This document shows, one piece after another, positions 4,777 to 51,330 of a stretch of 64,000 nucleotides of DNA. Below the pieces are notes generated by a model. That model made no database searches and had not been told where the DNA came from. It worked only from the letters and a program-made list of their open reading frames with translations. The DNA is from Bradyrhizobium erythrophlei. Lineage in GTDB: Bacteria > Pseudomonadota > Alphaproteobacteria > Rhizobiales > Xanthobacteraceae. A program made the position numbers and the translations under genes. Location of the stretch: NCBI RefSeq assembly GCF_900142985.1, contig NZ_LT670849.1, positions 3,224,001 to 3,288,000 of the forward strand. Direction: 5' to 3'. The number at the start of each line of letters is the position of its first letter. Positions within the stretch are counted from its first letter, which is position 1.

Positions 4777-6471
4777 GTGAACCAAGTCCTTCCCCCGGCT
4801 TCAGCCATTCTCGCCTCCCTCGGCCAGGCCGCGTTCGTCTGGGATATCGCCTCGGACCAGCTGGTCTGGAGCGAACACCTCGCACAGGTCTTTCCCGACA
4901 TTCCCCCCGAGCGGCTGGCTAGCGGCGCCGAATTTTCCAACCTGATAGAGCCCCAGCGCTCGGTGCGGTCGGAGGCATTGGTCGCCTCGCCCGCAGCCCA
5001 AAGCGCGGAGGGCGCGCCTTACCGGATCGAATATGGCGTGCGGGCTTCGACCTCGGCGCCGGTACAATGGATCGAGGAAACCGGCTGCTGGTTCGCCGGC
5101 GCCGACGGCAGGCCAGTGCGGGCGCAAGGCATCATCCGGATCAACAACGAGCGTCATGCCCGCGACGAGCAGCTTGTCCGGCTGTCGCAGAACGATCCCC
5201 TGACCGGCGAGCTCAACCGCACCCATCTGATCGCTTCATTGGCCGAGATCATCGAGGAGGCGGTTCGTTTCCGCACCAACTGCGCTTTCCTGCTGATCGG
5301 CATCGATCATCTGGCGCGCATCAACGACGCTTTCGGTTTCGACGTGGCGGACGCCGTGATTTCCGAGGTGGCCGGCCGCATTCGTGCGCGGCTGCGCGGC
5401 GGCGACGTGCTCGGGCGTTTTTCCGGCAACAAGTTCGGCCTGGTGCTGAAGAACTGCACCGTCGACGACATGAACGTTGCGGCTGAGCGGTTTCTCGCCG
5501 CGATCCGCGACGAGGTGGTGCCGACCAAATCAGGACCGGTCTCGGTGACGGCCTCGATCGGCGCCGTCGCGGTGCCGCGCTATGCCCGCAGCGCGGATGA
5601 GGCGATCAACCGCGCACACGAATCCCTCGATGGCTCGAAGAGCCGCCGCGCCGGTTCGTTCTCGGTGTGGCGTCCGAATGTCGAACGCGACGCGCAGCGC
5701 CGGGTGAATATTCGCGTCACCGACGAAATCGTCACCGCGCTCAACGATCGCCGCATCACCATGGCGTTCGAGCCGGTGGTCGATGCCCGCGGGCGCAATG
5801 CGGCTTTTTACGAGTGCCTGGTCCGCATGGAGCAGCACGACGGTCAGGTGCTGCTGGCGCCAGATATCGTCCCGGTGGCGGAGCGCCTCGGGCTGATTCG
5901 TCTGGTCGATCACCGCGTGCTCGAACTCGTGGTGGCTGAACTGACCGCATCGCCCCACGTGCAGCTCAGCCTCAACATCTCGCCGGACACCACCATGGAT
6001 CCGGACTGGTGGACCGGAATCGAGTCGCTGATGCGGGCGCATCCCGGCGCCGGCGAGCGGCTGATCGTCGAGATCACCGAGACGGTGGCGATCCAGGACG
6101 TCGATGACGTCCGCGGCTTCGTCACGCGCTTGAAGAATTTCGGCAGCCGGATCGCCATCGACGATTTTGGCGCCGGCTACACCTCGTTCCGCAACCTGCG
6201 CAAGCTTGGCGTCGATATCGTCAAGATCGACGGTGCTTTCGTGCAGAATATCGCGCGCATCCCCGACGACCGCGCCTTCGTGCAGACGTTGATCGATCTG
6301 GCGCGGCGGCTCAACATCAAGACCGTCGCCGAATGGGTGCAGGACGAAGAAGCCGCCGGCATGCTGCGCGACTGGGGCTGCGACTACATTCAAGGCCGGT
6401 TGATCGGGCTCGCTTCATCGCGGCGCCCCTGGCAGCCGCCAGCCGAGACGGTGTTGCCGGCGGCTAGCTAG
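4777..6471 (+). CDS. PAS-like/GGDEF/EAL cyclic-di-GMP protein, probable phosphodiesterase
   Basis: A 564-residue cytoplasmic signalling protein with no membrane segments. Residues about 15-125 resemble a PAS sensor, about 135-290 form a GGDEF domain and about 310-555 an EAL domain. The GGDEF signature is degenerate (SGNKF at 216-220), so cyclase activity is unlikely. The EAL domain keeps the expected catalytic residues: Glu346 in ECLVR, LSLNIS, IVEITET, IDDFGAGYTS (461-470), VKIDG, TVAEW and IQGRLIG. The inferred role is hydrolysis of c-di-GMP, perhaps with the GGDEF domain as a regulatory module. Its TAG stop is formed by the terminal CTAG of the downstream repeat element. Confidence 0.9.
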   Translation: MNQVLPPASAILASLGQAAFVWDIASDQLVWSEHLAQVFPDIPPERLASGAEFSNLIEPQRSVRSEALVASPAAQSAEGAPYRIEYGVRASTSAPVQWIEETGCWFAGADGRPVRAQGIIRINNERHARDEQLVRLSQNDPLTGELNRTHLIASLAEIIEEAVRFRTNCAFLLIGIDHLARINDAFGFDVADAVISEVAGRIRARLRGGDVLGRFSGNKFGLVLKNCTVDDMNVAAERFLAAIRDEVVPTKSGPVSVTASIGAVAVPRYARSADEAINRAHESLDGSKSRRAGSFSVWRPNVERDAQRRVNIRVTDEIVTALNDRRITMAFEPVVDARGRNAAFYECLVRMEQHDGQVLLAPDIVPVAERLGLIRLVDHRVLELVVAELTASPHVQLSLNISPDTTMDPDWWTGIESLMRAHPGAGERLIVEITETVAIQDVDDVRGFVTRLKNFGSRIAIDDFGAGYTSFRNLRKLGVDIVKIDGAFVQNIARIPDDRAFVQTLIDLARRLNIKTVAEWVQDEEAAGMLRDWGCDYIQGRLIGLASSRRPWQPPAETVLPAAS

Positions 6472-6632
6472 TGTGGCGGTTCAGAAGTTCGCATCATTTC
6501 TGCCGCGCGCTCGTCATGCGAACTTCTGAACCAAAGCCACACTAGATCAATAATTTGCTAGTGCCCCTTCGATTCCGAAGTTCGTAAATCAGGGGCAGCA
6601 ACATGATACGAACTTCGGAATCGGGACACTAG
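6468..6632 (-). repeat. Composite CTAG double-hairpin element, copy 1
   Basis: Two hairpins of 78 bp (6468-6545) and 75 bp (6558-6632), each bounded by CTAG, are joined by the 12-base linker ATCAATAATTTG. The first has an outer arm CTAGTGTGG and a 17-bp inner arm GGTTCAGAAGTTCGCAT, both perfectly matched by their partners. The second has an outer arm CTAGTGCCCC with one mismatch and an inner arm GATTCCGAAGTTCGTA. Both inner arms share GAAGTTCG. By linker polarity the element lies reversed relative to copies 2, 4 and 5. It separates two same-strand genes and supplies the stop codon of the first. Confidence 0.9.
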
Positions 6633-6748
6633 GCCGCGCGCTGTCGAACCTGATGCCGAAACGGCATCGGGTTGTGCGAAATTCTCTGCTTTCTCGCTCG
6701 GACCACGGTTGCTAGCGTCCCTCGTAGCAAGCGGGCGGAGCGATAGAC

Positions 6749-7732
6749 ATGTCTTATACCCTTGATGCAACGCGCGTTTCCGAAGCCATCCTGCCCGTCA
6801 TCGCAGTCGACGGGCTGTCGTCGGCAAAGCTTGCGGATCGCCAACGCGTCGCGGCCGCGTTGCGCAACGCCTGCCTCGACAAGGGTTTTTTTTACGTATC
6901 GAACCACGGCATTCCCGCCGGACTGATCGAGGCGGTGTTCGCGGAGGCGCGGCGTTTTTTCGATCTGTCTGGCGAGGCGAAATCTGCCGTCGACAAATCA
7001 CGCTCATTCTGCAATCGCGGCTATGAACCGTTGCGCGCCCAGACGCTCGAAGCCGGTGCGCCTCCCGACCTGAAGGAAAGCTTCTACATCGGCCCCGAGC
7101 TTTGGCTCGATGATCCGCGTGTCGCCGCGCGCCGCTTCAACCGGGGGCCCAATCTATGGCCGCATGACATGCCTGGTTTCCGTCCGACCATGCAGGCCTA
7201 TTTCGCGGCCATGCTCGATCTCGGCGAACGGCTGATGCGGGGTCTTGCGCTCTCGCTCGATCTTCCCGAAGACCATTTCGGCGCATTCAGCCGCGATCCG
7301 CTGGCGACGTTGCGTCTATTGCACTATCCGCCGCAGCCGGCCGACGCGTCGCCTGGCGAAAAAGGCGCTGGCGCGCATACGGACTTCGGTGGCCTGACCT
7401 TGCTGCTTCAGGATTCCGTCGGCGGACTGCAAGTGCACGATGCTGCATCCGGCCAATGGATCCACGCCGATCCGGTCCCCGGCACATTCGTCGTCAATCT
7501 CGGCGACATGATCGCGCGCTGGACCAACGATCGCTATCGCTCGACCGTGCATCGGGTGGTGAATGCGTCCGGCGGGGAGCGCTACTCCGTCCCGTTCTTT
7601 TTCGTCGGGAATCCGGATCACGAGGTCGCTTGCCTCGCCAATTGCCTTGGGCCCGGCGCGTCGCCGAAATATCCGCCTACCACGGTCGAGGGACATCTCC
7701 AGGAGATGTATCGGCGGACCTATGCGGCATGA
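6749..7732 (+). CDS. Isopenicillin-N-synthase-like 2-oxoglutarate/Fe(II) oxygenase
   Basis: A 327-residue cytosolic non-haem iron dioxygenase. The N-terminal DIOX_N part contains [14 protein letters not shown]. The double-stranded beta-helix carries the iron ligands H210 and D212 (HTDFGG) and H268 (STVHRV), and R278-x-S280 (RYS) for 2-oxoglutarate binding. Such enzymes oxidise small molecules; the substrate cannot be read from sequence. It is translationally coupled to the next gene (ATGA overlap) and sits upstream of an ABC importer, which suggests catabolism of an imported compound. Confidence 0.88.
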
Positions 7733-8490
7733 CCGGCCGCGTTCCTGACCCGGCCATTCTCATTCACGGCGCCTGGCAGGGGTCCTGGGTGTGGGATCGC
7801 GTCATTCCGCTACTTGCCCATTCGGGCGGTATTGCCTCGATCGCGGTCGACTTGCCGGGGAACGGAACCGACCATACGAGTCCCGCCGACGTTTCTCTCG
7901 AGCTCTATGTCGATCATATCGGGGCGGTCCTGCGACAGCTCCCCGATCGCGTCAGCCTGGTGGCCCATTCCGGCGGCGGCGTCGTCGCCTCGGCCGTGGT
8001 AGAGCGCTTTCCGGAACGCATCGGCCGGATCGCCTATGTGGCAGGAATGATGCTCCCCGATGGCATGGCCTTTGCAGAACTCACCGCGGAGTTGCGAGGC
8101 GATTATCCGGCCGTAGCTGGCATCGCCCCGCATCTGATCTGGTCCGACGATCGACTGACAAGCCGGGTACCGATGCAAGCCGCGCTCGCCCACTTCTTTC
8201 AGGACTGTCCGCCGGAGGATGCTGCGGCCGCGGCGCAACGGCTGACGCCTCAACCCGAGCGCGGGCGCGCGGTGAGAGCCCGCCTCACTCCGCAAAGATT
8301 TGGCCGTGTGCCCCGGCTCTATGTTGAAGCGGAAGCGGACCGCTCCGTCATTTTGGCCTGCCAGCGGCGGATGCAAGAGCTGGTGCCGGGTGCGGAAGTC
8401 GCTACGCTGCCGACCGGCCATTGCCCGCATCTGGCGGCCCCAAAACTCTTCGCCGATGTCCTGATCCCATTCCTGAGCAAGGCCGCGTGA
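7729..8490 (+). CDS. Alpha/beta-hydrolase (esterase-like)
   Basis: A 253-residue single-domain hydrolase. [13 protein letters not shown] forms the oxyanion region, SLVAHSGGG holds the nucleophile Ser81, and LPTGHCPHL holds the catalytic His near 231. The overall pattern resembles the plant-type MES/HNL and bacterial salicylate-esterase-like hydrolases. The ATG overlaps the stop of the oxygenase gene, so the products are made together. A substrate related to the oxygenase product is an inference. Confidence 0.88.
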
Positions 8491-8513
8491 GGCCGCCTTT
8501 AAAACGACCGGAG

Positions 8514-8682
8514 CTAGTGCCCAATTTCCGAAGTTCGTGCTCCATCGCAGCACCCACTTTCACGAACTTCGGAAAGTCATGGGCACTAGAAAATCTATTG
8601 ATTCTAGTACCGCTTTGTCGATCTGAAGTCCCTGACCGAATTCGCCGCTTGCACTGCAGGGACTTCAGATCGGCGGTACTAG
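8514..8682 (+). repeat. Composite CTAG double-hairpin element, copy 2
   Basis: Hairpin 1 (8514-8589, 76 bp) has perfect outer arms CTAGTGCCCA/TGGGCACTAG and a 15-bp inner arm TTTCCGAAGTTCGTG. The linker is AAAATCTATTGATT. Hairpin 2 (8604-8682, 79 bp) has perfect outer arms CTAGTACCGC/GCGGTACTAG and inner arm GATCTGAAGTCCCTG. This copy defines the forward orientation used here. It lies between the hydrolase and the ABC solute-receptor gene. Confidence 0.92.
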
Positions 8683-8745
8683 CGCGCGAATTTGCAAATG
8701 AACTCTCCAAAGCCGGCACCATAACCAACGACAGGAGTTATTTTC

Positions 8746-9732
8746 ATGAGACGTTTGCTTCCAATATCCGCTGTCGTCGCACTTGCGATTACGTTTTCCG
8801 AAACCGCACTCGCGGCCGAGACCGTGAGCTTCCTCCTCGACTGGTTGCCCGCCGGCGACAAGGCCGCGGTCTATCTCGGCGCTGAAAAAGGCCTGTTCGA
8901 AGCGGAAGGCATCAAGGTGAACATCCAGTCTGGCCGCGGCTCCAGCGATGTCGTGACCAAGCTCGCGACGGGATCTGCCGACATGGGAACGGGCGGGTTA
9001 GCTGCGCTGTTGCAGGCCAAGGCAACGGACGATGTGCCTGTGAAGGCCGTCATGTCGATCTATACGTTACAGCCGGACGCCATCTTCACCACCAAGGAGA
9101 GCGGCATCAACGACTTGAAGGATTTGCAGGGCAAGACGGTGGCCACCGCCACGTTCTCCTCGTCCAACGTATCCTGGCCGCTGGTGCTCAAGGCCAATGG
9201 CGTCGATGCCGAGAAGATCAAGCTGCTGAAGGTTGATCCAGGCGCGCTGGCGCCGATGTTGGCCTCCGGCAAGGTCGACGCGACCATCAACTGGGTTACC
9301 GTTGCACCGGCCTTCGCAGGTCCGCTTAACGAGGCCGGCAAATCGTTCAAGGAACTCGCCTGGTCGAAGTACGGCTTCGACGGGTACGGCCTGTCGGTTT
9401 TCGTTTCTGACAAGATGATCAAGGAACGCCCCGAGACGGTTCGCAAGTTCCTCAAGGCGTATCAGCGCGCGACCGAAATGGCGATCGCCGATCCGATGGA
9501 GGCGGCCAAGGCATTGAAGGCTCACGTGCCGGAAGTGGATGTCGCAACGGCCGCCGAACAATGGAAGGCCTCCATTCCTCTGATGGTCAATGATATCGCC
9601 AAAAAGGATGGCAGCGGGGCGTTTGAATCGAAATTGCTGGCCACGACGTGGAAGTGGGTAGCCGAGGCGCAAAACCTGCCGATCGACAAGCTCAATCCCG
9701 AGAGCGCCGTCAGCCGCGATTTCCTCAAGTAG
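8746..9732 (+). CDS. ABC transporter solute-binding protein, NMT1/SsuA/TauA type
   Basis: A 328-residue periplasmic receptor. A signal peptide ends at about residue 25 (ALAAE), followed by the NMT1-family start VSFLLDWLPAGDKAAVYLGA. GRGSSDVVTKLATGSADMG and DLQGKTVATATF are typical of the THI5/nitrate-taurine receptor fold. Ligands in this family include thiamine precursors, sulfonates, nitrate and aromatic acids, so specificity is open. AGGAG lies just upstream of the ATG. It is the first gene of the importer. Confidence 0.9.
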   Translation: MRRLLPISAVVALAITFSETALAAETVSFLLDWLPAGDKAAVYLGAEKGLFEAEGIKVNIQSGRGSSDVVTKLATGSADMGTGGLAALLQAKATDDVPVKAVMSIYTLQPDAIFTTKESGINDLKDLQGKTVATATFSSSNVSWPLVLKANGVDAEKIKLLKVDPGALAPMLASGKVDATINWVTVAPAFAGPLNEAGKSFKELAWSKYGFDGYGLSVFVSDKMIKERPETVRKFLKAYQRATEMAIADPMEAAKALKAHVPEVDVATAAEQWKASIPLMVNDIAKKDGSGAFESKLLATTWKWVAEAQNLPIDKLNPESAVSRDFLK

Positions 9733-9814
9733 TTGCTCGTGGTCTAATTCGGAACGTTGCTGCGCTGTCGGTGAACTCCGGGGGCGCAGCAACAATCAAG
9801 TGAGGTATGTGCCG

Positions 9815-10600
9815 ATGGCCGCGCGTCAGTCCGTGATCCGATTCGCCGACGTCGGCCAGACATTCCTCGGTGCCGACGGCAAACGCGTCGATGCTCTCGA
9901 TGGCCTCTCGTTCGAAATCGATCGTCATGAATTCGTAGCGGTGCTGGGACCGTCCGGCTGCGGCAAATCCACGTTGCTCCGGCTGATCGCGGGACTGATC
10001 CATCCGACCTCGGGCAGCGTCGAGATTTTCGGCATGCCGGTTGTGGAGCCGCGCGACGAGATCGGAATCGTGTTTCAAAGACCGACCCTGCTGCCGTGGT
10101 TCGATGTGCTTGGCAACGTCACGTTTCCGATGCGCCACAAATACGGCTTCGTCAGCGATGTCGAGCGCACGCGTGCCCGCGAACTTCTCGAACTGGTCGG
10201 CCTCGGCGGCTTTGACACGCGACGGCCCGAAGAACTTTCGGGCGGCATGCAGCAACGCGTGGCGATCGCGCGTGCGCTGCTGCTCGATCCCGATATCCTG
10301 CTCATGGACGAACCGTTTTCCGCGCTCGATGCCTTGACCCGCGACGAGATGAGCTTCGAATTGCTGCGAATCTGGACCGAGCGGCCCAAGACGGTGCTGT
10401 TCATCACCCACTCGATTCCGGAAGCCTTGCTGCTTGCCGATCGCATCATCGTCATGACCGGCCGCCCGGGGCGCGTTCGCGAGGTTCTTGACGTGCCGCT
10501 GGCGCGGCCGCGGTCCATGAAGACGCTCTCGGAGCCCGCCTTCCATGAACTCGCCAGTCACATCCGTGGCCGCCTCTTCAGTCGCCCGGTCGCGGCATGA
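9815..10600 (+). CDS. ABC transporter ATP-binding protein, SsuB/TauB type
   Basis: A 261-residue ATPase with Walker A GPSGCGKST at 45-53, a Q-loop (VFQRPTLLPW), the signature LSGGMQQRVAIARAL, Walker B ILLMDEPFSALD and a switch His (FITHS). It energises the importer formed with the genes on either side. The ATG at 9815 is favoured over a GTG at 9800 because GTGAGGT lies about 8 bases before it. It overlaps the permease start by 4 bases. Confidence 0.93.
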   Translation: MAARQSVIRFADVGQTFLGADGKRVDALDGLSFEIDRHEFVAVLGPSGCGKSTLLRLIAGLIHPTSGSVEIFGMPVVEPRDEIGIVFQRPTLLPWFDVLGNVTFPMRHKYGFVSDVERTRARELLELVGLGGFDTRRPEELSGGMQQRVAIARALLLDPDILLMDEPFSALDALTRDEMSFELLRIWTERPKTVLFITHSIPEALLLADRIIVMTGRPGRVREVLDVPLARPRSMKTLSEPAFHELASHIRGRLFSRPVAA

Positions 10601-11385
10601 AGCTTCCCGTCGACGGGCGGTTGCTTGTGCTGCTCGACCGGATCGCGCCTGCTGCTGCCTTTGTCGGGCTGCTCCTGCTGTGGGAGGCCACGGTTCGGTT
10701 GCTTGCGATCCCGTCCTTCCTGCTGCCTTCGCCCAGCGTCGTCATGCAGGCGATGCTGGCGACGCCCTTGCCGGTCTGGCTGGGGCATATCTGGGCGACT
10801 TTGCGGGTTGCGTTGATGGGATACGCGCTCGCGATTCTGATCTCGGTGCCGCTCGCAGTGGCGCTGGCGTCGTCGCGCCTGCTGTCGCGAACGCTATATC
10901 CCATTCTCGTCGTGGTGCAGTCGACACCGATCGTCGCTGTCGCTCCGATCATCATCGTCACGCTCGGGGCGTCGGACCTTCCGCGCGTCGTCATCACATT
11001 CCTGATCGCCTTTTTCCCGATCGTCGTTTCGACGGTGACCGGCCTGCTGGCAACGCCCGATGAACTCGTCGAGCTGTCGCGTTCGCTTCGCGCCGGCCGC
11101 GTGCGGGAGATCCTGCATGTGCGGCTTCCCTTTGCGCTGCCGCATCTGTTCTCGGCGCTCAAGATATCATCGACGCTCGCGGTTATCGGCGCTGTTGTCG
11201 CGGAATTCGTGGCGGCGGAACGCGGGCTTGGATTTTTTATCGCATTCTCGACATCGTTCTTCAAAATCCCGAGCGCGTTCGCAGGGCTTGTGATTCTGGT
11301 TGCGATCAGCCTGGCCCTGTTTCGCCTCGTTGGCCTTGCGCAAAAGCTGCTCGCACCATGGTCGCTCCCGAAGTCCGAACGGTGA
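10597..11385 (+). CDS. ABC transporter permease, SsuC/TauC type
   Basis: A 262-residue inner-membrane permease with about six transmembrane segments. The coupling-loop (EAA-type) region is ELSRSLRAGRVREILHVRLP. It pairs with the ATPase through an ATGA start/stop overlap. Together with the receptor at 8746 it makes a complete nitrate/sulfonate/taurine-class importer. Confidence 0.93.
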   Translation: MKLPVDGRLLVLLDRIAPAAAFVGLLLLWEATVRLLAIPSFLLPSPSVVMQAMLATPLPVWLGHIWATLRVALMGYALAILISVPLAVALASSRLLSRTLYPILVVVQSTPIVAVAPIIIVTLGASDLPRVVITFLIAFFPIVVSTVTGLLATPDELVELSRSLRAGRVREILHVRLPFALPHLFSALKISSTLAVIGAVVAEFVAAERGLGFFIAFSTSFFKIPSAFAGLVILVAISLALFRLVGLAQKLLAPWSLPKSER

Positions 11386-11457
11386 GAGGGCGATTCGATC
11401 AGCCCGGTTCTGGCTCCAGAGCTGCGTTTGGAAATGAGAGGTCGCTGCAAATTCACT

Positions 11458-11488
11458 CGTCATGGCCGGGTCAAGCCCGGCCATGACG
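11458..11488. repeat. GTCATGGCCGGG-type palindrome
   Basis: Perfect 13-bp arms, CGTCATGGCCGGG (11458-11470) and CCCGGCCATGACG (11476-11488), around a five-base loop. No T-run follows, so a classical terminator is not indicated, although its position between convergent genes would suit one. Related elements occur at 34105-34136 and 37895-37987. Confidence 0.8.
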
Positions 11489-11534
11489 AAACAACTTATG
11501 GAAGCGAAGGATGGAAGCTAGCGAAGCCGGTTCC

Positions 11535-16768: not shown

Positions 16769-16937
16769 CTAGTACCGCCGATCTGAAGTCCCTGTGCCAC
16801 AAGCGGCGAGTTTGATCAGGGACTTCAGATCGACAAAGCGGTACTAGATTCAATAAGTCTTCTAGTGCCCATGACTTTCCGAAGTTCGTGACGGTGGGTG
16901 CTGCAATGGAGCACGAACTTCGGAAAGTGGGCACTAG
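16769..16937 (-). repeat. Composite CTAG double-hairpin element, copy 3 (inverted)
   Basis: This is the same arrangement as copy 2 on the opposite strand: the ACCGC-type hairpin (16769-16847, inner arm GATCTGAAGTCCCTG), linker ATTCAATAAGTCTT, then the GCCCA-type hairpin (16862-16937, inner arm TTTCCGAAGTTCGTG read on the minus strand). Arms are perfect and loops differ from copy 2. It occupies most of the divergent upstream region between gloB and the methyltransferase gene. Confidence 0.92.
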
Positions 16938-24939: not shown

Positions 24940-25106
24940 CTAGAGCTCCGATACCGAAGTTCGCAAAACTGTAACGGCTACCTCCGATGCGAACTTCGGT
25001 ATCAAAGGAGCTCTAGCAAGATATTGATTCCAGTGCGGCATTGAATTTGACGCTCCTGTCACGGACTGGCCGCGACACCGTAGGAGCTTCAAATTCGCCG
25101 CACTGG
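24940..25106 (+). repeat. Composite CTAG double-hairpin element, copy 4 (divergent stems)
   Basis: Hairpin 1 (24940-25016) has perfect outer arms CTAGAGCTCC/GGAGCTCTAG and a 16-bp inner arm GATACCGAAGTTCGCA. The linker is CAAGATATTGATT. Hairpin 2 (25030-25106) has outer arms CCAGTGCGGC/GCCGCACTGG and inner arm GAATTTGACGCTCCT with one mismatch. The arm sequences differ from other copies yet remain paired, and the terminal CTAG is CCAG/CTGG in hairpin 2. Located between divergent lysC and the PH-domain gene. Confidence 0.88.
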
Positions 25107-39503: not shown

Positions 39504-42338
<2,835 letters not shown>

Positions 42339-42756: not shown

Positions 42757-44709
42757 TCAACGTGGCTGCGTGATGACGTCGATCAGCACGGGCTGACCGG
42801 CTTTCACGGCAGCGATGCCCTTGCGGAACGCGTCGGCCAGATCGTTGGGGTCTTCGATCGGCCCGATGCCGAGCGCGCCATAGCCAAGCGCGATCTTCGC
42901 GTAATCGATGTTCGGATTGTCGATGGTGGTGCCGATCGGCGTGTTGCGTATGCCGCGATTGTGCCGGTTCGCCATGCGCTGCACGTGCATGATCTCCTGA
43001 TGATAGGCGCGGTTGTTCTGGATGATCGTCAGGTAGGGGATGTTGTGATGTGCGGCGGTCCACATTGTATGCGGCGCCATGTTGAACTCGCCGTCGCCGC
43101 AGACATTGATCACGACGCGGCCGCCGCCGGCGTCACGATGGGCCAGCGCCGCGCCTAACGCTGCGACCGGCTGATAGCCAACACCATAGGCGCCCGAGCC
43201 GCCGATGAAGCGGTAATGTTTTTCCAGCGGCCACAGCCGATGCGGCCAGCGGGACGAAAAGTCGCCGTCGGCAACCAGCGCCCAGTCTTCCTTCTGCACT
43301 TGCGCCCACAGCTCCATGTAGAGGCGCGCGGTCGAGATCGGCTTGGCGTCCCATGCGAAGGTCGCCTCGGTGCGCGCGCGTTCCAGTGTGCTGTGGTAGG
43401 CCTGACGCAGCTTTTCGCCGCGCATCTCGCTGGCGTTCTTGCCGCTCGAGGATGTCTCGCGCTGCACGGCCTCGATCAGGAAAGGCAGCGTGGTTTGCGC
43501 GTCCGCCGTGATGCTGAGATCAGTCGCGGTATAGCGCTGGAAATCCTGATAGTTCGCGCGCACCAGCAGATCGTGCGTCGAGATACTGATGACCTTTACC
43601 CCCGGCTTGGTCCGCGGCGAGTCGGTGCGCCAGAGCTGATCGCGCATGGTGTTGAGCTGGCCGAAAAGGTCGACCGGCTCGAGCGAGAGGATGCAGTCGG
43701 CCTGCGCGATCAACGAGCCCGCGCGCTCCGACTGGCAGAGGTAATGCGTGTTCGGCATGTTCATGCGCGCACGGTTGTCGATCACCGGCGCCTGCAACAG
43801 CTCGGCCAGCCGCACCAGATTCTCCATCGCGCTTTGCGAACGCGCATAGCGATCGGCAATGATGACCGGCGCTTCGGCGGCCACCAGCATCTTGGCGGCC
43901 TCGCGCAGTGCGTTCGGATCGCCTGCGGTCTGCGCAGGTATCGTCAAGCGTGGGATCTTGAGTCTGCGCGCTTCATGCTCTTCGAGCGGATCTTCCTGAA
44001 GCTTGCCGTCGGCGACGATAAAGACGGGTCCGGGCGGTTGAGCGCAGGAAAGCGCATAACCGCGCACCGTCGACTCGGCGAAATGCTGCAACGACATCGG
44101 GTAATCGTCCCACTTGACGAAGTCGCGCACGGTGGCCGCGCCATCCTGCACGCTGTGGAACCACTCGACCCCCGGCCGCCGCTCTTCGACAGGGCCGGCA
44201 TTGCCGGTGAAGAGCAGCATCGGAACACGATCGCAATAGGCGTTGTAGATCGCCATCGAGGCATGCTGCGTGCCGACGGTGCCATGCATGATCGCCGCCA
44301 TAGGCTTGCCGGCCACCTTGGCGTAGCCATGCGCCATTCCGACCGATACTTCCTCGTGCAGGCAGGTCAGCCATTCCGGCTTTTTGTTTGCGCCGTAGTT
44401 GATGAAGCTTTCCTGTAAGGCGCGGAAGGTCGAGCCGGGGCAGGACGCCATGTAGTCGATATTTAGTGTCTTGCAGACGTCGACCATGAAGTCGGAGCCG
44501 GTTTTCTCCGTCGTCAGTTGCTCAAGATCCGGCGGCCGCCCTCGTTCTTTGGCTTGATCCGCCGCCGTGGGCATCGTCGCATTCGCTTTGGCGGGTGGCG
44601 CGGTCTGCGCCCGGGATGCGGTCGGCGCGGCCATCGTGGCTCCGCCGGCTGCGACCACCCCTTTGAGAAATCGGCGGCGGTGCAGGCCGGGTGTTTCCGC
44701 TTTGGCCAT
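42757..44709 (-). CDS. Tat-exported thiamine-diphosphate-dependent enzyme
   Basis: A 650-residue acetolactate-synthase-like protein with an export signal. A twin-arginine motif HRRRFLKGVVAAGG is followed by a hydrophobic stretch and ASRAQ cleavage site (about residue 40). The ThDP fold is complete: the activating Glu in LTCLHEEVSVGMAHGYAKVA, a central domain, and the GDGEFN cofactor motif ending in NN. The start at 44709 lies 6 bases after GGGAG. Substrate is unknown. Periplasmic location with a cytochrome c partner suggests an oxidase-type reaction; this is inference. Confidence 0.88.
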   Translation of the reverse strand: MAKAETPGLHRRRFLKGVVAAGGATMAAPTASRAQTAPPAKANATMPTAADQAKERGRPPDLEQLTTEKTGSDFMVDVCKTLNIDYMASCPGSTFRALQESFINYGANKKPEWLTCLHEEVSVGMAHGYAKVAGKPMAAIMHGTVGTQHASMAIYNAYCDRVPMLLFTGNAGPVEERRPGVEWFHSVQDGAATVRDFVKWDDYPMSLQHFAESTVRGYALSCAQPPGPVFIVADGKLQEDPLEEHEARRLKIPRLTIPAQTAGDPNALREAAKMLVAAEAPVIIADRYARSQSAMENLVRLAELLQAPVIDNRARMNMPNTHYLCQSERAGSLIAQADCILSLEPVDLFGQLNTMRDQLWRTDSPRTKPGVKVISISTHDLLVRANYQDFQRYTATDLSITADAQTTLPFLIEAVQRETSSSGKNASEMRGEKLRQAYHSTLERARTEATFAWDAKPISTARLYMELWAQVQKEDWALVADGDFSSRWPHRLWPLEKHYRFIGGSGAYGVGYQPVAALGAALAHRDAGGGRVVINVCGDGEFNMAPHTMWTAAHHNIPYLTIIQNNRAYHQEIMHVQRMANRHNRGIRNTPIGTTIDNPNIDYAKIALGYGALGIGPIEDPNDLADAFRKGIAAVKAGQPVLIDVITQPR

Positions 44710-44780
44710 TGCCATCTCCCGTTTTTGACCGGCCATCGGCGAGGACGATCCGGTGTTGTTGTTTGTCCGGGAAGACTAAC

Positions 44781-44825
44781 GCATGATCCGGAAAAGTGGG
44801 AACCGGTTTTCCGAAAACATCATGC
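44781..44825. repeat. GCATGATC-type palindromic repeat, copy 3
   Basis: GCATGAT (44781-44787) pairs with ATCATGC (44819-44825), and CGGAAAA with TTTTCCG inside. It lies about 70 bases upstream of the ThDP-enzyme start and is the cleanest copy of this family here. Confidence 0.75.
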
Positions 44826-44900
44826 GGGAATGACAACCCTCAAGCGCGATCGCGTGGGATCGCGCATCGAAGATGTGCAGAGGAAGCGTGAGACGCGAAG

Positions 44901-46358
44901 TTACTTCGTCGCCGAGAAGCGGCTGTCGAACGAGCTCGTCGATACGATCGGCTGGGCGCCAGCCACGAGACTCGGAGCAGGTTGCGCGGGCGCTGGCGTG
45001 GCAGCCGGAGCAGGGGCCGCGGCGGCGGTTTCAGTCACCGCCGGCTTGAGCGGTGGCTTGGCGGAAGCCTGTTTGGTTTCCGTCTTGGCCGATTTCGACG
45101 GCTTGACGTCGGCGACCTTCGGCTTGGCCGGGATCGGCGGCGGTGTCGGGTCGGCGGCGGTCGCATCCGCCGACGCGGTGCCACCGAACTTGCGGGCGAG
45201 GCTGGAAAAGAAGCCTTCCGATTCGCCACTTGGTGCTGACGCGACCCGCGTCGAAGACGACGAGAGCGAAGCCGTCAGCGGCTCATCCGGCGAAGTCACG
45301 GACCCGCGCGGCGGATTGACGTGGTCTAGCGGGATGGTGCCGGGCGCGCGTTCCGGCGGATTGAAGACCGACGGAGTTGGGCCCGCTTCCGAAAGGCCGG
45401 TGTTACCGTTCGGAACCCTGGCCGCGAACACCCGATGCATGCCGCCATCGATGCCGGTGTTGAGCTGCGCCACCGGCGTGCCCTTGGAAACCAGCTTGGC
45501 GAATTCGGCGTCGTCGGCCTGCTGCTTCTCGCGCACGGCCTGCGCGACCTCATCCGGGATCACATAGGCCGGGCATTTGGACGAGGCTTCAAACACCGGG
45601 TCGCGCTTGGCGTCCGGCGGCTTGACGCCGTCGAAGACGTATTTCTTCTCGCAGAAATCGACCTTCGGCTCCTGCCGCGTCACTTCGAAATGATCATTGC
45701 CTTCCTTGATCATTTTCCAGAAGGCCATGTGCGGGCTGTTGCGATGGCGCGCCATGTTGAGCGCGGTCATGTGGAACGGATAGGCCTGGAACTGGAACGA
45801 CTTCTGGCCGCCGAAAAAGGACTCGCGGCCGAGCGAGTAGATTTCCGCGATCTGTTCGTCGGTCATCGCGTAACAGCCGCGCGACGAGCAGTCGCCATGG
45901 ACCATCAGCTCCGAGCCGGTACGGCCGAGCGAGCGGTCATAGGCATTCGGATAGCCGGTGTTGAAGGAGAGATAATAGGCCGACGTCGGATTCATCTGCC
46001 CCGGCGTGATCGCATAGAAACCCTCCGGGGCCTGGCGGTCGCCTTCGCGGACCTTCGGTCCGAGATCGCCCGACCAGCGGCAGATCGGATAGGTCTTCAA
46101 CAGCGCGAAGCGGCCGGTGCGGTCCTGCTTCCAGACCTCGAGCTCGGCTTCCTGTTTGAAGAGCCGGACCAGGATCGGCGATTGCAGATCCATGTTCTTT
46201 TCGACCATCGCCGCGAGCAGTTTGGGCGGGACGGGCTGGTTGGCCTTGGCGTTGGTGGCGAGCGAACCAATCTCGTCGCTATTGCAGCCGGCAAGAAGCG
46301 CACCTGCCGACAGCGCGACAGATGTCATGAGCGCGCGAACCAACGAGCCACGAATCAA
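44901..46358 (-). CDS. L,D-transpeptidase (YkuD) lipoprotein
   Basis: A 485-residue murein-active protein. With a TTG start at 46358, 7 bases after GGAG, it has a lipoprotein signal (MIRGSLVRALMTS then LLAGC). The YkuD domain spans about 60-210 and has the catalytic motif MVHGDCSSRGCYAMTDEQ (His, Ser, Cys). The C-terminal 150 residues are Ala/Pro/Lys-rich and probably disordered. It would form 3-3 cross-links or anchor proteins to peptidoglycan. An ATG at 46328 would remove the charged start of the signal. Confidence 0.85.
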   Translation of the reverse strand: MIRGSLVRALMTSVALSAGALLAGCNSDEIGSLATNAKANQPVPPKLLAAMVEKNMDLQSPILVRLFKQEAELEVWKQDRTGRFALLKTYPICRWSGDLGPKVREGDRQAPEGFYAITPGQMNPTSAYYLSFNTGYPNAYDRSLGRTGSELMVHGDCSSRGCYAMTDEQIAEIYSLGRESFFGGQKSFQFQAYPFHMTALNMARHRNSPHMAFWKMIKEGNDHFEVTRQEPKVDFCEKKYVFDGVKPPDAKRDPVFEASSKCPAYVIPDEVAQAVREKQQADDAEFAKLVSKGTPVAQLNTGIDGGMHRVFAARVPNGNTGLSEAGPTPSVFNPPERAPGTIPLDHVNPPRGSVTSPDEPLTASLSSSSTRVASAPSGESEGFFSSLARKFGGTASADATAADPTPPPIPAKPKVADVKPSKSAKTETKQASAKPPLKPAVTETAAAAPAPAATPAPAQPAPSLVAGAQPIVSTSSFDSRFSATK

Positions 46359-46610
46359 TGCAAAGCTCCACACCCAACAGGCAAATCTCGCACCCCAAAC
46401 CAGCGTCGATGCCCTGAAGCCATTGAATAAAAGTTTATCCTTAAAGGCCCCGCCGTCGCAAGCCGGGGATGCCTGCGCGACCCATGCGCCGATGCGCATA
46501 GTGAACCGAATCTAAACAAGCCGCCAAAGGCCAAATTGCGGCCAAAAGGGCGGAAATTTGGAGAGAATGCGGCAGCGGAGCTTGGTATGAATCGCCAAAA
46601 AAGCGCCGCC

Positions 46611-47573
46611 TCAGAACGGCTTCCGGCCGATATCGAGGAATTTCTGCCGCCGTTGCCTGCGGATCGCGTCGGCGTCCATCTGCTTGAGCTCGCCCAGCGC
46701 CTGGGAGATCGCATCGCCCGTGTTGGCGATCATAATAGCCGGGTCGCGATGAGCGCCCCCGACCGGCTCTTTGAGGATCTGGTCGATCACGCCGAATCGC
46801 AGCATGTCCTGGGCGGTAATCTTCATGTTGGTAGCGGCCTCCTGGGCCTTGGTCCCGTCGCGCCACAGGATCGAGGAGGCGGCCTCCGGCGAGATCACGC
46901 TGTAGATCGCGTGCTCGTACATCAGGACACGATTGGCGGTGGTGATGGCGATCGCGCCGCCGGACATGCCCTCGCCGGTGATGATCGCGACATTCGGCAC
47001 GCCCAGCGAAAGGCAGGCATCGGTCGAGCGTGCAATCGCCTCGGCCTGTCCGCGTTCCTCGGCGCCGATGCCGGGATAGGCGCCGGCGGAATCGACGATC
47101 GACAGCACGGGAATGCCGAAGCGATCCGCCATCTCCATCAGCCGCACCGCCTTGCGATACCCTTCCGGGCGCGCCATGCCGAAATTGTGCTTGATGCGGG
47201 AGTCGGTGCTGGCGCCTTTTTCCTGGCCCATCACGCAAATGCTCTCGCCACGGAAACGGCCAAAGCCGCCGACCAGCGCCTCATCCTCGGCGAACTTGCG
47301 ATCGCCGGCGAGCGGGGTGAATTCCGTGATCAATCCGGCGATGAAATCGGTGAAATGCGGTCGCTGCGGATGGCGCGCGACCAGCGTCTTCTGCCACGGC
47401 GTCAGGTTGGCGTAGAGGTCGGCCAGCGCCTGCGCGGCCTTGTCCTCGATCCGCGAAATCTCCTCGCCGATGTCGCTGCCGGACGCTGCAAGCACGCGCA
47501 ATTCATCGATCTTGGAATCGAGTTCGGCGACCGGCTTTTCGAAATCGAGGTAGCTGCGCATGTGATCCGGCAT
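46611..47573 (-). CDS. accA: Acetyl-CoA carboxylase carboxyltransferase subunit alpha
   Basis: A 320-residue subunit that, with AccD, transfers carboxyl from biotin to acetyl-CoA to make malonyl-CoA for fatty-acid synthesis. MRSYLDFEKPVAELDSKIDE is the standard N-terminus, with FGMARPEGYRKAVRLM, VDSAGAYPGIGAEERGQAEA and GEGMSGGAIAI in the crotonase-like core. The start at 47573 fits homologues. No accD in the window, as usual for this phylum. Confidence 0.96.
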   Translation of the reverse strand: MPDHMRSYLDFEKPVAELDSKIDELRVLAASGSDIGEEISRIEDKAAQALADLYANLTPWQKTLVARHPQRPHFTDFIAGLITEFTPLAGDRKFAEDEALVGGFGRFRGESICVMGQEKGASTDSRIKHNFGMARPEGYRKAVRLMEMADRFGIPVLSIVDSAGAYPGIGAEERGQAEAIARSTDACLSLGVPNVAIITGEGMSGGAIAITTANRVLMYEHAIYSVISPEAASSILWRDGTKAQEAATNMKITAQDMLRFGVIDQILKEPVGGAHRDPAIMIANTGDAISQALGELKQMDADAIRRQRRQKFLDIGRKPF

Positions 47574-47803
47574 CAAGACAATATAGGGAGAAAGCCACCC
47601 TGGAGCGAAGTGACTCCCGGGTTGCGCGAAGAAAGCGCGCGCTATCAAATAGTTAGCGTACGCTCCAGCGTCAGCGATGATTCCCTTCGGCGAAGCAGGC
47701 GGAGGGAAGCGAGCGGAAAAGTTCTTTCGGGGGAGACGCGACCGAAGTCAAGAAGTTCGCCCGGGGGGTGTGTGGATCGGGCCGCTGGGGGCAAGCGCAT
47801 GCG

Positions 47804-48766
47804 CTATCCCTCGGATAGCGGATGCAGATCGCGCACCAGGCTCTTCAGCCGCTCCTCGACCACGTGGGTATAGATCTGGGTCGTCGAAATATCGGTGTGA
47901 CCAAGCAGCGTTTGCACCACGCGCAAATCGGCGCCGTTGTGCAAAAGATGACTGGCGAATGCGTGGCGCAGCACGTGCGGCGACACCAGCCGCGGCGCGA
48001 GGCCCGCGGCGGCGGCGAGCTCCTTCAGGTCGCGTGCGAAATGCTGCCGCGTCAGATGCCCGCTTTCGCCGAAGGAAGGAAACAGCCATTTCGAAACGAC
48101 AGCATTTTTCGCCCTTGAACCTTTAAGCGCCTCCATCGCCGCAAGGTAGTCGGCCATCGCGTGGCGCGATGCCTCGTTGAGCGGCACCAGCCGCTCCTTG
48201 TTGCCCTTGCCGCGCACGACGATCATGCGGGCGTCGCTGCGTGAGGCCGACACCGGCAGTGCCACCAGTTCGGAGACACGTAGGCCCGTGGCGTAAAGCA
48301 CCTCGAGCAGGCAATAAAGCCGCATCGCGCGAAGCCGCTCCTGAGACGAAGTGCCGGCTTCCTCCGCCAAAGCCTTGGCGCGCGTCAACAGGCGATCGAC
48401 GTCGGATATCGAGAGCACCTTGGGCAGGCCGCGGCCGCGCTTGGGTCCCGACAAGATCGCCGCCGGATCGTCGGCGCGAATCCGCTCGTTGAGCAGGAAA
48501 CGAAACAGATGCCGCATCGCCGACAGCCGACGCGCTACGCTGGACGACTTGAATCCTCTGGTGTCGAGGTCGGCGAGATAATCGCGCAAGGATTGGGTCT
48601 CGGCGCCGGCAAAGCTCTCGCTTTCGCCGGCGAGGAAAGCTGAAAGATCGGTCAGGTCGCGGCGATAGGCATCGAGCGTGTTGGCGCCCGCGCCTTGCTC
48701 GGCGGCGAGCATGTCGAGGAACAGGTCGATCAGCCTGGCGTCGGAAGGTTTGGCGCGCATTGGCAA
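47804..48766 (-). CDS. xerD: Tyrosine recombinase XerD
   Basis: A 320-residue site-specific recombinase resolving chromosome dimers at dif. The SAM-like N-terminal domain (EQGAGANTLDAYRRDL) precedes the catalytic domain with Arg in LYATGLRVSEL, HxxR in HVLRHAFASHLL, and the Tyr nucleophile in LGHTDISTTQIYTHV. Its genomic neighbours (accA, aroK) are the conserved chromosomal setting of XerD, not of a mobile-element integrase. Confidence 0.95.
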   Translation of the reverse strand: MPMRAKPSDARLIDLFLDMLAAEQGAGANTLDAYRRDLTDLSAFLAGESESFAGAETQSLRDYLADLDTRGFKSSSVARRLSAMRHLFRFLLNERIRADDPAAILSGPKRGRGLPKVLSISDVDRLLTRAKALAEEAGTSSQERLRAMRLYCLLEVLYATGLRVSELVALPVSASRSDARMIVVRGKGNKERLVPLNEASRHAMADYLAAMEALKGSRAKNAVVSKWLFPSFGESGHLTRQHFARDLKELAAAAGLAPRLVSPHVLRHAFASHLLHNGADLRVVQTLLGHTDISTTQIYTHVVEERLKSLVRDLHPLSEG

Positions 48767-48831
48767 ACCCTAACTCGCAAATCCTTGACGAACCCTCTCC
48801 CGCCACACCAAGCGGCCGCCGCCAGCCGCAC

Positions 48832-48978
48832 TTACTTCTTGAGGAACTTGTCCGGCGGCACGTTGATGGTCATTTCGCGAGGCTTCGGATTGACGAAGTT
48901 CGCCAGCGCAAAGATTGTCCCGTAGACGACCCCCACGATGATCGCGACCACGGTCAAAAAGCGGAACAGGCTCGGCAT
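48832..48978 (-). CDS. Small single-pass membrane protein
   Basis: A 48-residue protein not previously obvious because of its length. It reads MPSLFRFLTVVAIIVGVVYG, then a second hydrophobic stretch and a polar tail with FVNPKPREMTINVPPDKFLK. One transmembrane helix (about 5-30) and a short basic periplasmic or cytoplasmic tail. It lies between xerD and divergent aroK; I recall equivalent short proteins beside xerD in Bradyrhizobium, but no function. Confidence 0.75.
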   Translation of the reverse strand: MPSLFRFLTVVAIIVGVVYGTIFALANFVNPKPREMTINVPPDKFLKK

Positions 48979-49230
48979 GTGACAGGGGTCTGATTCAGTC
49001 GCCTCGACTGGTGGCGTGGATCTGACATTCGCTACCCATCTGGCCGTTGCGAGGGGACGCGGACGCTAGAATCGGACCACCAGGCAAATTAACCTTGAAT
49101 TCATCGGAACTGGCCTGACTTGACTACCACCATGTTCGACATTTCGTTGCAAGGGTTTATCGCTATCCCTAGCAACGGTATGAGCGGCGGTAGTATGGTC
49201 GCTCGCTAGCCAACTCTGCCGATTGAAGAA

Positions 49231-49857
49231 ATGCCCGATATTGCCTTGCCCAGTGCCGTCAGTACCACCCAGGAAGCCGAGATCGCGGCCGCGCTGGGCG
49301 CGCGTTCGATCGTGCTGGTCGGAATGATGGGGGCCGGCAAATCGACCATCGGACGCAGGCTGTCGGCCCGGCTCGGGTTGCCGTTCCTCGATGCCGACGC
49401 CGAAATCGAGCAGGCCCACCGCCTGCCGATCCCCGACATTTTCGAAAAGTACGGCGAGCCCTATTTCCGCGACGGCGAGGTCCGCGTGATCGCGCGGCTG
49501 CTCGACAACGGACCGGCGGTGATAGCGACCGGTGGCGGCGCCGTCATGCGGGACGAGACGCGCGAGCGGATTCGCACGAAGGCGGTTTCGATCTGGCTCA
49601 AGGTCGATACCGACGTGATCATGCGGCGAGTGAAGCGGCGCTCCGATCGCCCTTTGCTCCAGACCGCAGACCCCGAGGCCACCGTCGAGCGTCTGGTGAA
49701 GGAGCGCGAGCCGCTCTATGGCCAGGCCGACGTGACGATCTGGTCACGCGATGTTCCGCACGACAAGATCGTCGACGAGTGCCTCGAAGCACTGTACGAA
49801 AAGCTTCGCGACGGCCGCGCCACGCAAGGCGATGATAGTTTGGGTGCTGCGCCATGA
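49231..49857 (+). CDS. aroK: Shikimate kinase
   Basis: A 208-residue P-loop kinase phosphorylating shikimate in aromatic amino-acid synthesis. Walker A GMMGAGKSTIG is at 31-41, with FLDADAEIE and IATGGGAVMRDETR (shikimate-binding), and RPLLQ in the lid. The N-terminus has a 25-residue extension usual in this order. Overlaps aroB by ATGA. Confidence 0.96.
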   Translation: MPDIALPSAVSTTQEAEIAAALGARSIVLVGMMGAGKSTIGRRLSARLGLPFLDADAEIEQAHRLPIPDIFEKYGEPYFRDGEVRVIARLLDNGPAVIATGGGAVMRDETRERIRTKAVSIWLKVDTDVIMRRVKRRSDRPLLQTADPEATVERLVKEREPLYGQADVTIWSRDVPHDKIVDECLEALYEKLRDGRATQGDDSLGAAP

Positions 49858-51002
49858 CCGCGCCGCTGAAACACACCGACCTCATCAATGTCGACGTCGC
49901 GCTCGGCGATCGTGCCTATGACATCGTGATCGGCCGCGACGTTCTGGCCACGCTTGGCAGGCGAGTAGCGGCGTTGCGGCCGGGGGTGCGCACCGCCATC
50001 GTCACCGATCGCACCGTTGCGGGCCATTGGCTCAAAAAGACCGAAGCCTCGCTGACCGAGGCCGGAATTGCGACGTCTCACGTCATCGTCGAGGAAGGCG
50101 AGGGCTCCAAGAGCTACGCCGTCCTCGAAAAGGTGAGCGAGGCTTTGATCGCGGCCAGGATCGAGCGTAACGATCTCGTCGTCGCGCTCGGTGGCGGCGT
50201 GGTCGGCGACCTCGCCGGCTTTGCGGCCGCGATTCTTCGCCGCGGCGTCGATTTCGTGCAGGTGCCGACCTCGCTGCTGGCGCAGGTCGATTCTTCCGTC
50301 GGCGGCAAGACCGGCATCAACTCACCGCAGGGAAAAAATCTCATCGGTGCGTTCCACCAGCCGGTGCTGGTGGTCGCCGATACCGCCGTGCTCGATACGT
50401 TGTCACCGCGCCAGTTCCGCGCCGGCTATGCCGAGGTCGCCAAGTATGGATTGCTCGGTGACGAAGCGTTCTTCGCCTGGCTGGAAACGAATCATGCCGA
50501 TATCTTTTCGGGCAATGCTGCGCGCGAGCATGCGATCGCGACCTCCTGCCGCGCCAAGGCCGCGATCGTGGCGCGCGACGAGCGCGAGAATGGCGAGCGC
50601 GCGCTTCTCAATCTCGGACATACCTTCGGACACGCGCTCGAAGCCGCGACCGGCTTCTCCGACCGGCTGTTTCATGGCGAAGGCGTTGCCGTCGGCATGG
50701 TGCTGGCGGCGGAGTTGTCGGCGCAGCTCGGGATGATTGCGGACGGCGACGCCATCCGTATCAAGCACCATCTGGCCGACGTCGGCTTGCCGACGGCGTT
50801 GCAGGATATTGCAGGCTTTACCCAGGAAGGTTTGGCCGATGCGGATGCGCTGATGGCGCTGATGGCGCAGGACAAGAAGGTCAAGCGCGGCCGCCTCACC
50901 TTCATCCTGCTTGAGGCGATCGGCCGCGCCGTCATCGCACCTGACGTCGAGCCGTCACTGGTTCGTGATTTTCTCAAGGTGAAGCTGGAACGCCGGCGCT
51001 AG
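49854..51002 (+). CDS. aroB: 3-Dehydroquinate synthase
   Basis: A 382-residue NAD- and metal-dependent enzyme converting DAHP to 3-dehydroquinate. VVALGGGVVGDLAGFAAAIL, PTSLLAQVDSSVGGKTGINS and the metal ligand His region LNLGHTFGHALEAATGFSDR and HGEGVAVGM are typical. Starts inside the aroK stop (ATGA). Its TAG stop is the first CTAG of the downstream repeat element. Confidence 0.96.
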   Translation: MTAPLKHTDLINVDVALGDRAYDIVIGRDVLATLGRRVAALRPGVRTAIVTDRTVAGHWLKKTEASLTEAGIATSHVIVEEGEGSKSYAVLEKVSEALIAARIERNDLVVALGGGVVGDLAGFAAAILRRGVDFVQVPTSLLAQVDSSVGGKTGINSPQGKNLIGAFHQPVLVVADTAVLDTLSPRQFRAGYAEVAKYGLLGDEAFFAWLETNHADIFSGNAAREHAIATSCRAKAAIVARDERENGERALLNLGHTFGHALEAATGFSDRLFHGEGVAVGMVLAAELSAQLGMIADGDAIRIKHHLADVGLPTALQDIAGFTQEGLADADALMALMAQDKKVKRGRLTFILLEAIGRAVIAPDVEPSLVRDFLKVKLERRR

Positions 51003-51168
51003 TGCCCACTTTCCGAAGTTCGTGTTACACCTCAGCACACACCGTTCACGAACTTCGGAAAGTCATGGGCACTAGCAAACTCATTAATTCTAGTACCGCA
51101 TTATCGATCTGAGGTCCCTGATCGAACTCGCCGCTTGTGGTGCAGGGACTTCAGATCGGCGGTACTAG
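50999..51168 (+). repeat. Composite CTAG double-hairpin element, copy 5
   Basis: Same type as copies 2 and 3: hairpin 1 (50999-51075; arms CTAGTGCCCA, inner TTTCCGAAGTTCGTG), linker CAAACTCATTAATT, hairpin 2 (51090-51168; outer CTAGTACCGC, inner GATCTGAGGTCCCTG against CAGGGACTTCAGATC, one G-T-type wobble position). The first CTAG provides the aroB stop; the last CTAG is shared with copy 6. Confidence 0.92.
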
Positions 51169-51330
51169 TGTGGCGACACTGACGTTCCTTCAGTTTTGCA
51201 GCGAGTTCTTCGAAGGAACGTCAGGGTCAAAGCCACACTAGATCCATATATTTACGAGTGTCCCTTTGGTTCTGACATTCGCAAGAGTGCCCGCTGCGAT
51301 ATAATACGAATGTCAGAACCGGGACACTGG
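51165..51330 (-). repeat. Composite CTAG double-hairpin element, copy 6 (fused to copy 5)
   Basis: Same type as copy 1: hairpin 51165-51241 (outer CTAGTGTGGC/GCCACACTAG, inner CTGACGTTCCTTC), linker ATCCATATATTTA, hairpin 51255-51330 (outer CGAGTGTCCC/GGGACACTGG, inner GGTTCTGACATTCG). It begins in the CTAG that ends copy 5, so the two are joined tail to tail. With copy 5 it fills the aroB to CorC-gene gap almost completely. Confidence 0.9.

Follow-up and report, generated by a model that had tools for sequence, protein, structure and literature searches.

A 64,000-nucleotide stretch of the Bradyrhizobium erythrophlei genome (contig NZ_LT670849.1, positions 3,224,001 to 3,288,000; hereafter the window) carries six copies of a composite repeat in which two long hairpins, bounded by the tetranucleotide CTAG or a variant of it, are joined by a short linker. 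We consider it likely that these composites are non-autonomous mobile DNA elements that are moved as a unit in trans, and whose hairpin arms are copied onto one another after insertion. The evidence comprises a single family of hairpins with conserved pairing and a high copy number, mobility of the composite as a unit, empty sites in related genomes, and correlated changes on both arms of orthologous copies. Covariation is commonly read as a sign of selected RNA structure. In the present family, such a signal appears in place in orthologous copies of a mobile DNA hairpin, target-derived bases included, and may be the product of mutational copying.

Architecture and covariation of the paired hairpins

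All six composites were located where an original prediction, made from the letters of the sequence, had placed them. The predicted dimensions, namely two hairpins of 75–79 nt and a linker of 12–14 nt, were measured in every copy. Each composite folds into two separate hairpins and reads, in order, as hairpin 1 (H1), an AT-rich linker of 12–14 nt, and hairpin 2 (H2). The hairpins have an outer stem of approximately 10 bp that opens with CTAGTG or a variant, a 3–5 nt bulge on the linker-side arm, an inner stem of approximately 15–17 bp that is mismatched in some hairpins, and a loop of approximately 20 nt. Beyond what had been predicted, H1 aligns with reverse-complemented H2 as one homologous hairpin family, and the composite therefore consists of a single hairpin type in two inverted copies.

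Among the 12 hairpins of the window, 98.3% of the pair cells hold standard pairs, and 19 of the 25 pairs show two-sided changes. None of 500 shuffles reached the observed covariation score, paired percentage, or two-sided counts. Specifically, four of five measures beat all 500 shuffles, and the fifth, the number of further pair types, was reached by 107. When the pairing partners were slid by 1–3 columns, pairing fell to 30–39%. The covariation thus exceeds these controls. The rarity of CTAG was also borne out: the window holds 43 occurrences, 19 of which lie within the 1,002 bp of the composites and 24 elsewhere, whereas trinucleotides predict 55 occurrences and base composition predicts 220. 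The genome (7,525,117 bases) holds 40 matches to the pattern CTAGTGNNNC(N6)GAAGTTC, which has 14 fixed bases, and none to the reversed pattern used as a control.

Concerted change of both arms after insertion

Close copies of the element (42 disjoint pairs) differ at a rate of 0.043 at stem sites versus 0.176 at unpaired sites, and show 25 two-sided changes, 21 of them complementary, versus 3.4 expected. Such comparisons mix changes made before and after insertion, and orthologous copies were used to isolate the latter. In the following, G000 is the genome of the window, other G codes are other genomes, and L codes are fetched loci.

Between G000 and G243, the composite at 24940–25106 differs by an A-T to T-A change in H1 and by a C-G to T-A change in H2. 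In addition, the inner tetranucleotide of H2 (25030–25106) reads TGAG in G243 and CCAG in G000, both facing an outer, target-derived CTGG that only the CCAG of G000 matches. At 6395831, two extra bases are present on both arms in G000, and at 2384466 both sides have changed at two pairs. The five orthologous pairs together show 7 two-sided changes compared with 0.58 expected (228 base pairs, some mismatched pairs excluded). A second definition of pairs, drawn from the own fold of each sequence, gives 4 such changes versus 0.35 expected (205 base pairs, P 0.0005), with only H1 used for 2384466 and pairs with conflicting columns dropped. This definition keeps the changes at 24940 and 2384466 and loses those at 6395831 and in the pair L083/L084.

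Variants of the outer tetranucleotide are also mirrored on the inner arm, as is the case for 16 of 46 deviating H2 target dinucleotides versus 1.8 by permutation. A fully mirrored variant is present in 36 hairpins. Their nearest relative has the same variant only in the case of the orthologous pair L083/L084, and in 19 of the 36 it carries CTAG on both arms. Inheritance is therefore not supported as the source of the mirrored guide variants.

Covariation in this family arises at least partly in place, after insertion. The copying of one arm onto the other probably explains both the correlated two-arm changes and the mirrored variants, and a mechanism of this type, template switching at hairpins, has been described (PMC8794818). 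The original prediction had named either selection or copying as the force that keeps structure over sequence; from the in-place changes on both arms, a copying process seems to contribute. In orthologous copies, stem differences amount to 0.041–0.050, compared with 0.21–0.23 at unpaired sites, so that stems change 4–6 times more slowly. Symmetric copying alone would not slow the change of stems, and we infer that they are either constrained or homogenised by other copies.

Movement as a unit

Seven composites of G010 are 97.7–99.4% identical to one another over 165–177 bp and have unrelated flanks. They are 96.4–98.2% identical to one composite of G004, and identity stops at the composite ends. 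These seven were chosen for their alike scores, in a genome with at least 31 hairpin matches. In G000, a B-type composite is nested within a D-type composite (1069810–1070136). The nesting point is the tetranucleotide between the D-type H1 and its linker, where D-type copies of G243 are uninterrupted. Ten neighbouring matches lie less than 60 bp apart, and six of them have exactly one CTAG in common. Of the other four, two make up the nested case, one with CTGG in common and one with an overlap that ends in CTAG; the third is an internal duplication (AAAC), and the fourth has a 40-bp gap. Together with the empty sites described below, the near-identical copies and the nesting bear out the predicted non-autonomous element as a paired, many-copy mobile unit.

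Empty sites and junctions

The search for empty sites that had been suggested with the prediction was successful at several loci. At the 51-kb locus of the window, a composite is found, among 28 readable loci in other genomes, only in G243, which carries a different, single one; G244 is empty and reads CTGA. At 24940, G244 and G198 are empty with CTGG, and G243 and G000 are filled as CTAG...CTGG. The element is also absent there from G199 and G060, whose sequence differs more. At 4448213, the empty CTGA of G199 corresponds to CTAG...CTGA in the filled G000. Two other sites read CCAG in six relatives versus CTAG...CTGG in G220, and CTGA in G244 versus CTAG...CTAG in G243. Further four-base empty targets at other sites are CTAG, CGCT, TCAG, GTAG and TCAA. 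Three relatives read CCAA, CCCA and CCCG at 2383249, versus the filled CCAG...CCAG, and the empty target at 7315716 is TCGA or GCAG. The clean empty sites were picked by eye among 169 listed rows, which include nested copies and loci represented twice, and sites 955274, 3378041, 7303142, 7305295 and 4449293 were too diverged to read.

Because the empty sites keep one tetranucleotide, insertion adds the body of the element plus one extra tetranucleotide, often but not always at a CTAG-like site. Joining after CT without target duplication is the simplest fit to these junctions and accounts for three clean sites without further change. Variants fall at target-side versus other positions in 87 versus 43 cases on the outer arm and in 72 versus 42 on the inner arm (Fisher p 0.59). 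The asymmetry of outer variants was considered as proof of a cut at CT and rejected as not decisive, given the similar inner arms.

Copy number, subtypes and taxonomic range

A covariance model built from the 12 window hairpins gives at least 150 matches in G000 (model searches score at most 150 candidates per genome, and 16 in the class-wide draw below, which makes their counts lower bounds throughout). An iterated composite profile was then used to scan 1.27 Mb of this 7.5 Mb genome, taken around known copies and therefore biased in density. It revealed 159 distinct places, comprising 133 full composites (154–173 bp, median 167) and 26 partial or solo hairpins. The two hairpins are thus linked in pairs at 133 of 159 places, as the prediction implied. 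Extrapolation from these regions, which were chosen around copies, suggests approximately 240 composites genome-wide. There are at least five end types, namely TGCCCACT/GGCGGTAC, TGTCCCGA/CCGCCACA, TGTCCCGG/TCGCCACA, AGCTCCGA/TCGCCGCA, and TGGTCCGA/CCACTCCA.

Matches to the hairpin model occur in 9 of 31 genomes, all from the same genus as the window. A class-wide draw with stricter filters gave matches in 13 of 289 genomes, representing 11 of 224 genera. In named genomes, at least 118 stretches match a pattern with 19 fixed bases; 112 of these 118 loci have a profile match, 114 matches are full length, and the paired form is present in 10 of 12 loci inspected. Among the matches listed are Caulobacter ginsengisoli, Phenylobacterium, Hyphomicrobium sp. 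CS1BSMeth3, Rhodoplanes, Pseudolabrys, Xanthobacteraceae and Bradyrhizobium sp. LMTR 3. In Alphaproteobacteria the family is patchily distributed, and it is either old or was spread horizontally. A search of plasmids with a single query sequence gave no composite match.

Some incomplete forms were also encountered. CTAGTG half-hairpins are present at position 1232 of L344, where a similar inverted end follows, and at 7880 of L307 (minus strand); these records are titled Conexibacter and Gemmatimonadetes, and the contigs are possibly misbinned. Shortened copies in L303, L333, L349, L362 and L293 (167–250) carry an apparent internal deletion that joins the 5ˊ arm of H1, in the loop, to the apparent 3ˊ arm of H2.

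The window copies and their genomic setting

Three of the window composites lie on the plus strand and three on the minus strand. The minus-strand composite that begins at 6468 consists of H2 (78 nt, 6468–6545), a 12-nt linker (6546–6557) and H1 (75 nt, 6558–6632). The outer CTAG of its H2 contains the TAG stop codon of an upstream GGDEF-EAL gene (open reading frame (ORF) 4777–6471). On the plus strand, H1 at 8514–8589 is followed by the linker at 8590–8603 and H2 at 8604–8682. A second minus-strand composite, with H2 at 16769–16847, linker at 16848–16861 and H1 at 16862–16937, occupies a site that is without a composite in G243, G244, G199, G060 and G198. The plus-strand composite at 24940 begins with H1 (24940–25016), located 6 bases from the start codon of a minus-strand aspartate-kinase-like gene, and continues with the linker (25017–25029) and the H2 described above.

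The last two copies stand tail to tail. The plus-strand member has H1 at 50999–51075, the linker at 51076–51089 and H2 at 51090–51168, and the CTAG of its H1 provides the TAG stop codon of an aroB-like gene (ORF 49854–51002). Its final CTAG (51165–51168) is held in common with the minus-strand member, which has H2 at 51165–51241, the linker at 51242–51254 and H1 at 51255–51330. The H1 of this sixth composite has a shorter outer stem with the foot CCAG/CTCG. At window positions 51000–51002, the upstream gene of G244 stops with the TGA of the target, and those of G000 and G243 stop with the TAG of the inserted CTAG, so that the stop stays in place.

Across the scanned regions of G000, composite midpoints fall within ORFs in only 7 of 133 cases, versus 1557 of 2000 random positions (simple ORF caller), and a stop codon lies within the terminal CTAG in 25 cases.

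Search for a mobilising enzyme

The original prediction had suggested looking for a linked transposase, either a RAYT (REP-associated tyrosine transposase, where REP stands for repetitive extragenic palindrome) or an IS5-like enzyme (IS, insertion sequence). A linked transposase found no support among Y1 enzymes, the class that was searched, DDE families lying outside the search. G000 has no match to Y1_Tnp (PF01797) at E 0.001, and 27 Y1 proteins used as queries gave no match in the 1.27 Mb of its sequence. There are likewise no Y1_Tnp candidates in G010, the genome with a recent burst of copies. Within the genus, Y1_Tnp is present in 167 of 265 genomes, including G243 (5 matches), G244 (1) and G015 (1). 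The same 27 queries match in 1 of the 118 composite loci, L399, by a protein identical to that of L205.

In L205 of G243, a Y1 gene lies approximately 110–150 bp from a composite, the only one of 30 fetched Y1 loci with an adjoining composite. The sequence there resembles an IS200-like element (recognised by eye) that lies in the H2 end of the composite, and it is read as a later insertion rather than a linked mobiliser. Such sequence, again by eye, is seen at or in H2 ends at 1185–1917 of L205 and near 7683 of L364 (minus strand). The hairpins may serve as IS200 targets.

A longer transposon with hairpin ends was also considered and rejected on inspection by eye. Two composites in G018 lie 782 bp apart (L068, 3522–3688 and 4471–4636) and flank a fliR-like ORF, as judged by eye; the first of these has the non-CTAG ends GTCG/CGAC and CGAA/TTCG, which are matched on both arms. 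Close partial copies in G000, also judged by eye, either flank ordinary-looking ORFs or represent internal deletions. In 4 of the 118 loci, seven outward-facing end pairs enclose no transposase recognisable by eye, the ORFs not having been subjected to a family search. By eye, these ORFs resemble a substrate-binding protein, an oxygenase and DnaK, and in some cases there is no long ORF.

Proposed mechanism and alternative explanations

In the mechanism that we favour, the element of 154–173 bp, with its two long hairpins of one family inverted around an AT-rich linker, would be moved as a unit into intergenic, often CTAG-like tetranucleotides by an enzyme acting in trans, presumably on single-stranded hairpin DNA. 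Joining would occur after CT, with a body that reads AGTG...CACT and no duplication of the target (CT^GG -> CT|AG...CT|GG). The target bases would come to lie at the outer foot of the hairpins, where they would be able to pair with the CTAG carried on the inner arm. After insertion, one arm would be copied onto the other, with template switching at the replicating hairpin as the probable route, such that both arms change together and the flanking target bases and the inner arm come to match. A bolder extension holds that the ends are programmable, with the inner CTAG picking the target tetranucleotide by DNA pairing and arm copying rewriting either the guide or the flank. We regard this extension as unlikely; if it is true, the element could drift to new targets without a change in the enzyme.

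Several points weigh against the favoured mechanism. Neither a mobilising enzyme nor an autonomous copy came to light, in an enzyme search confined to Y1_Tnp. Some clean empty targets (CGCT, TCAA, TCGA) are far from CTAG, and the same junctions can result when a duplication of 4 bp (CTAG) or 2 bp (TA) is followed by correction of an arm. Because the inner arms show a near-equal asymmetry of variants, the split without duplication is only the most economical reading. There is no bias in replication strand, as the H1-to-H2 strand is leading in 66 composites and lagging in 67, though none has to be expected of an element that is nearly symmetric. The comparison of orthologous filled copies covers only five pairs, one of which, L082/L382, is without a two-sided change. 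In the composite at 24940, TGAG would be the earlier state to judge by related copies. Finally, selection for pairing could also yield two-sided changes. Such selection is possible for single pairs, and less so for the replacement of two bases or the two-base difference on both arms.

Selection of this kind is central to the reading of the composites as a structured RNA or regulatory hairpin, in which pairing is kept by selection on transcripts and the copies spread by other means. The slow change of stems relative to unpaired positions, orthologues included, and the excess of two-sided changes agree with such a function. Nevertheless, the composites have no preferred orientation relative to neighbouring genes (++34, +-31, -+28, --28; n=121), the mirrored changes extend to flanking target bases, and a comparison with Rfam gave no family at the gathering threshold. 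Wobble pairs make up 154 of 502 non-Watson-Crick cells, which is about the share that transition-biased mutation alone should give, and we infer no excess. The structured RNA named in the original prediction is not needed as a cause of the covariation, given the lack of a wobble excess and the both-arm changes in single orthologous copies, and we judge this explanation quite improbable. A miniature inverted-repeat transposable element (MITE) mobilised by an IS630- or IS427-type DDE transposase, with duplication of the TA inside CTAG, is rather unlikely. These families favour CTAG-type targets with a TA core, and the double CTAG ends of the composites fit such a mode of insertion. The MITEs RUP and ERIC likewise have TA at their ends (PMC2229807). 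However, three clean empty sites (CTGG, CTGA and CTGA) have no TA, and the terminal inverted repeat is weak, each hairpin being its own inverted repeat.

The composites might instead be bacterial interspersed mosaic elements (BIMEs) of the REP/RAYT kind, in which a REPtron-type Y1 (HUH) transposase cuts single-stranded hairpin DNA at CT with the inner CTAG as guide. We hold this to be possible, if doubtful. The likeness lies in an inverted pair of bulged hairpins with a conserved foot tetranucleotide and CT at the junction. The cut made by REPtron enzymes falls at CT beside a hairpin, GTAG has been proposed as the guide in REPs, and in one REPtron system a change of GTAG to GTGG shifted the cut in a predictable way, to CC (PMC8266576). 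The junctions of the three clean empty sites are compatible with insertion after CT, though duplication plus correction would look alike. In five H1 copies an outer CC faces an inner GG, and the Y1 gene near a composite in L205 could also be counted in favour. Against this, neither G000 nor the burst genome G010 has PF01797, although most genomes of the genus do, and the Y1 queries match a single composite locus and none of the scanned G000 sequence. The mirrored variants are not common to nearest relatives. In addition, most composites have CTAG on both arms rather than GTAG at the 5ˊ foot of one, and their hairpins, which have stems of approximately 25 bp and move as a pair, are longer than REPs, which span 20–40 bp (PMC3733652). 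The REPtron-like junctions are therefore suggestive without a supporting gene. The predicted REP/RAYT likeness holds in anatomy and in the CT position, and membership in that class is no more than possible.

Comparison with known systems

Repeats of a similar two-arm architecture, such as RIME and Bru-RS, are known from Alphaproteobacteria. Our literature search found no CTAG-bounded paired hairpin; subscription papers were outside its scope, and a prior description in print is possible. REPs of Bradyrhizobium are likewise palindromic intergenic repeats from the same genus (PMC3733652, PMC5082802), but the Br-REP consensus differs, and CTAG is absent from the main text of PMC3733652, its consensus figures aside. 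The maintenance of hairpins by template switching (PMC8794818) offers a parallel, as it too explains two-sided changes by the copying of one arm off the other. That work concerns RNA genes, and its authors call their evidence for the maintenance of short stems circumstantial, whereas the case presented here is a bacterial mobile repeat and includes target-derived flanking bases. With hundreds of estimated copies per genome and known empty sites, the composites constitute a natural experiment for template switching at hairpins.

The closest resemblance is to the Caulobacter CcrM-associated intergenic repeats (CIR), which are described as many-copy intergenic sequences of approximately 110 bp with two arms, a linker, and TA ends (PMC2229807). 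The composites share with them two inverted-repeat arms joined by a linker, an intergenic location, many copies, occurrence in Alphaproteobacteria, and TA at the ends. By this description they differ from CIR in their length of 154–173 bp and in the position of GANTC, which marks a terminal loop or its vicinity in CIR. Among 133 composites, GANTC is present in the H1 loop of 2 and the H2 loop of 16 (approximate loop windows), and anywhere in 105. The composite architecture thus matches that of CIR-type two-arm repeats and, by description, is set apart from it by size and GANTC position. The review in PMC2229807 calls for further information on the way in which CIR moves, whereas for the composites both empty sites and in-place arm changes are seen. 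With this family, the movement of CIR-like two-arm repeats becomes a directly testable question.

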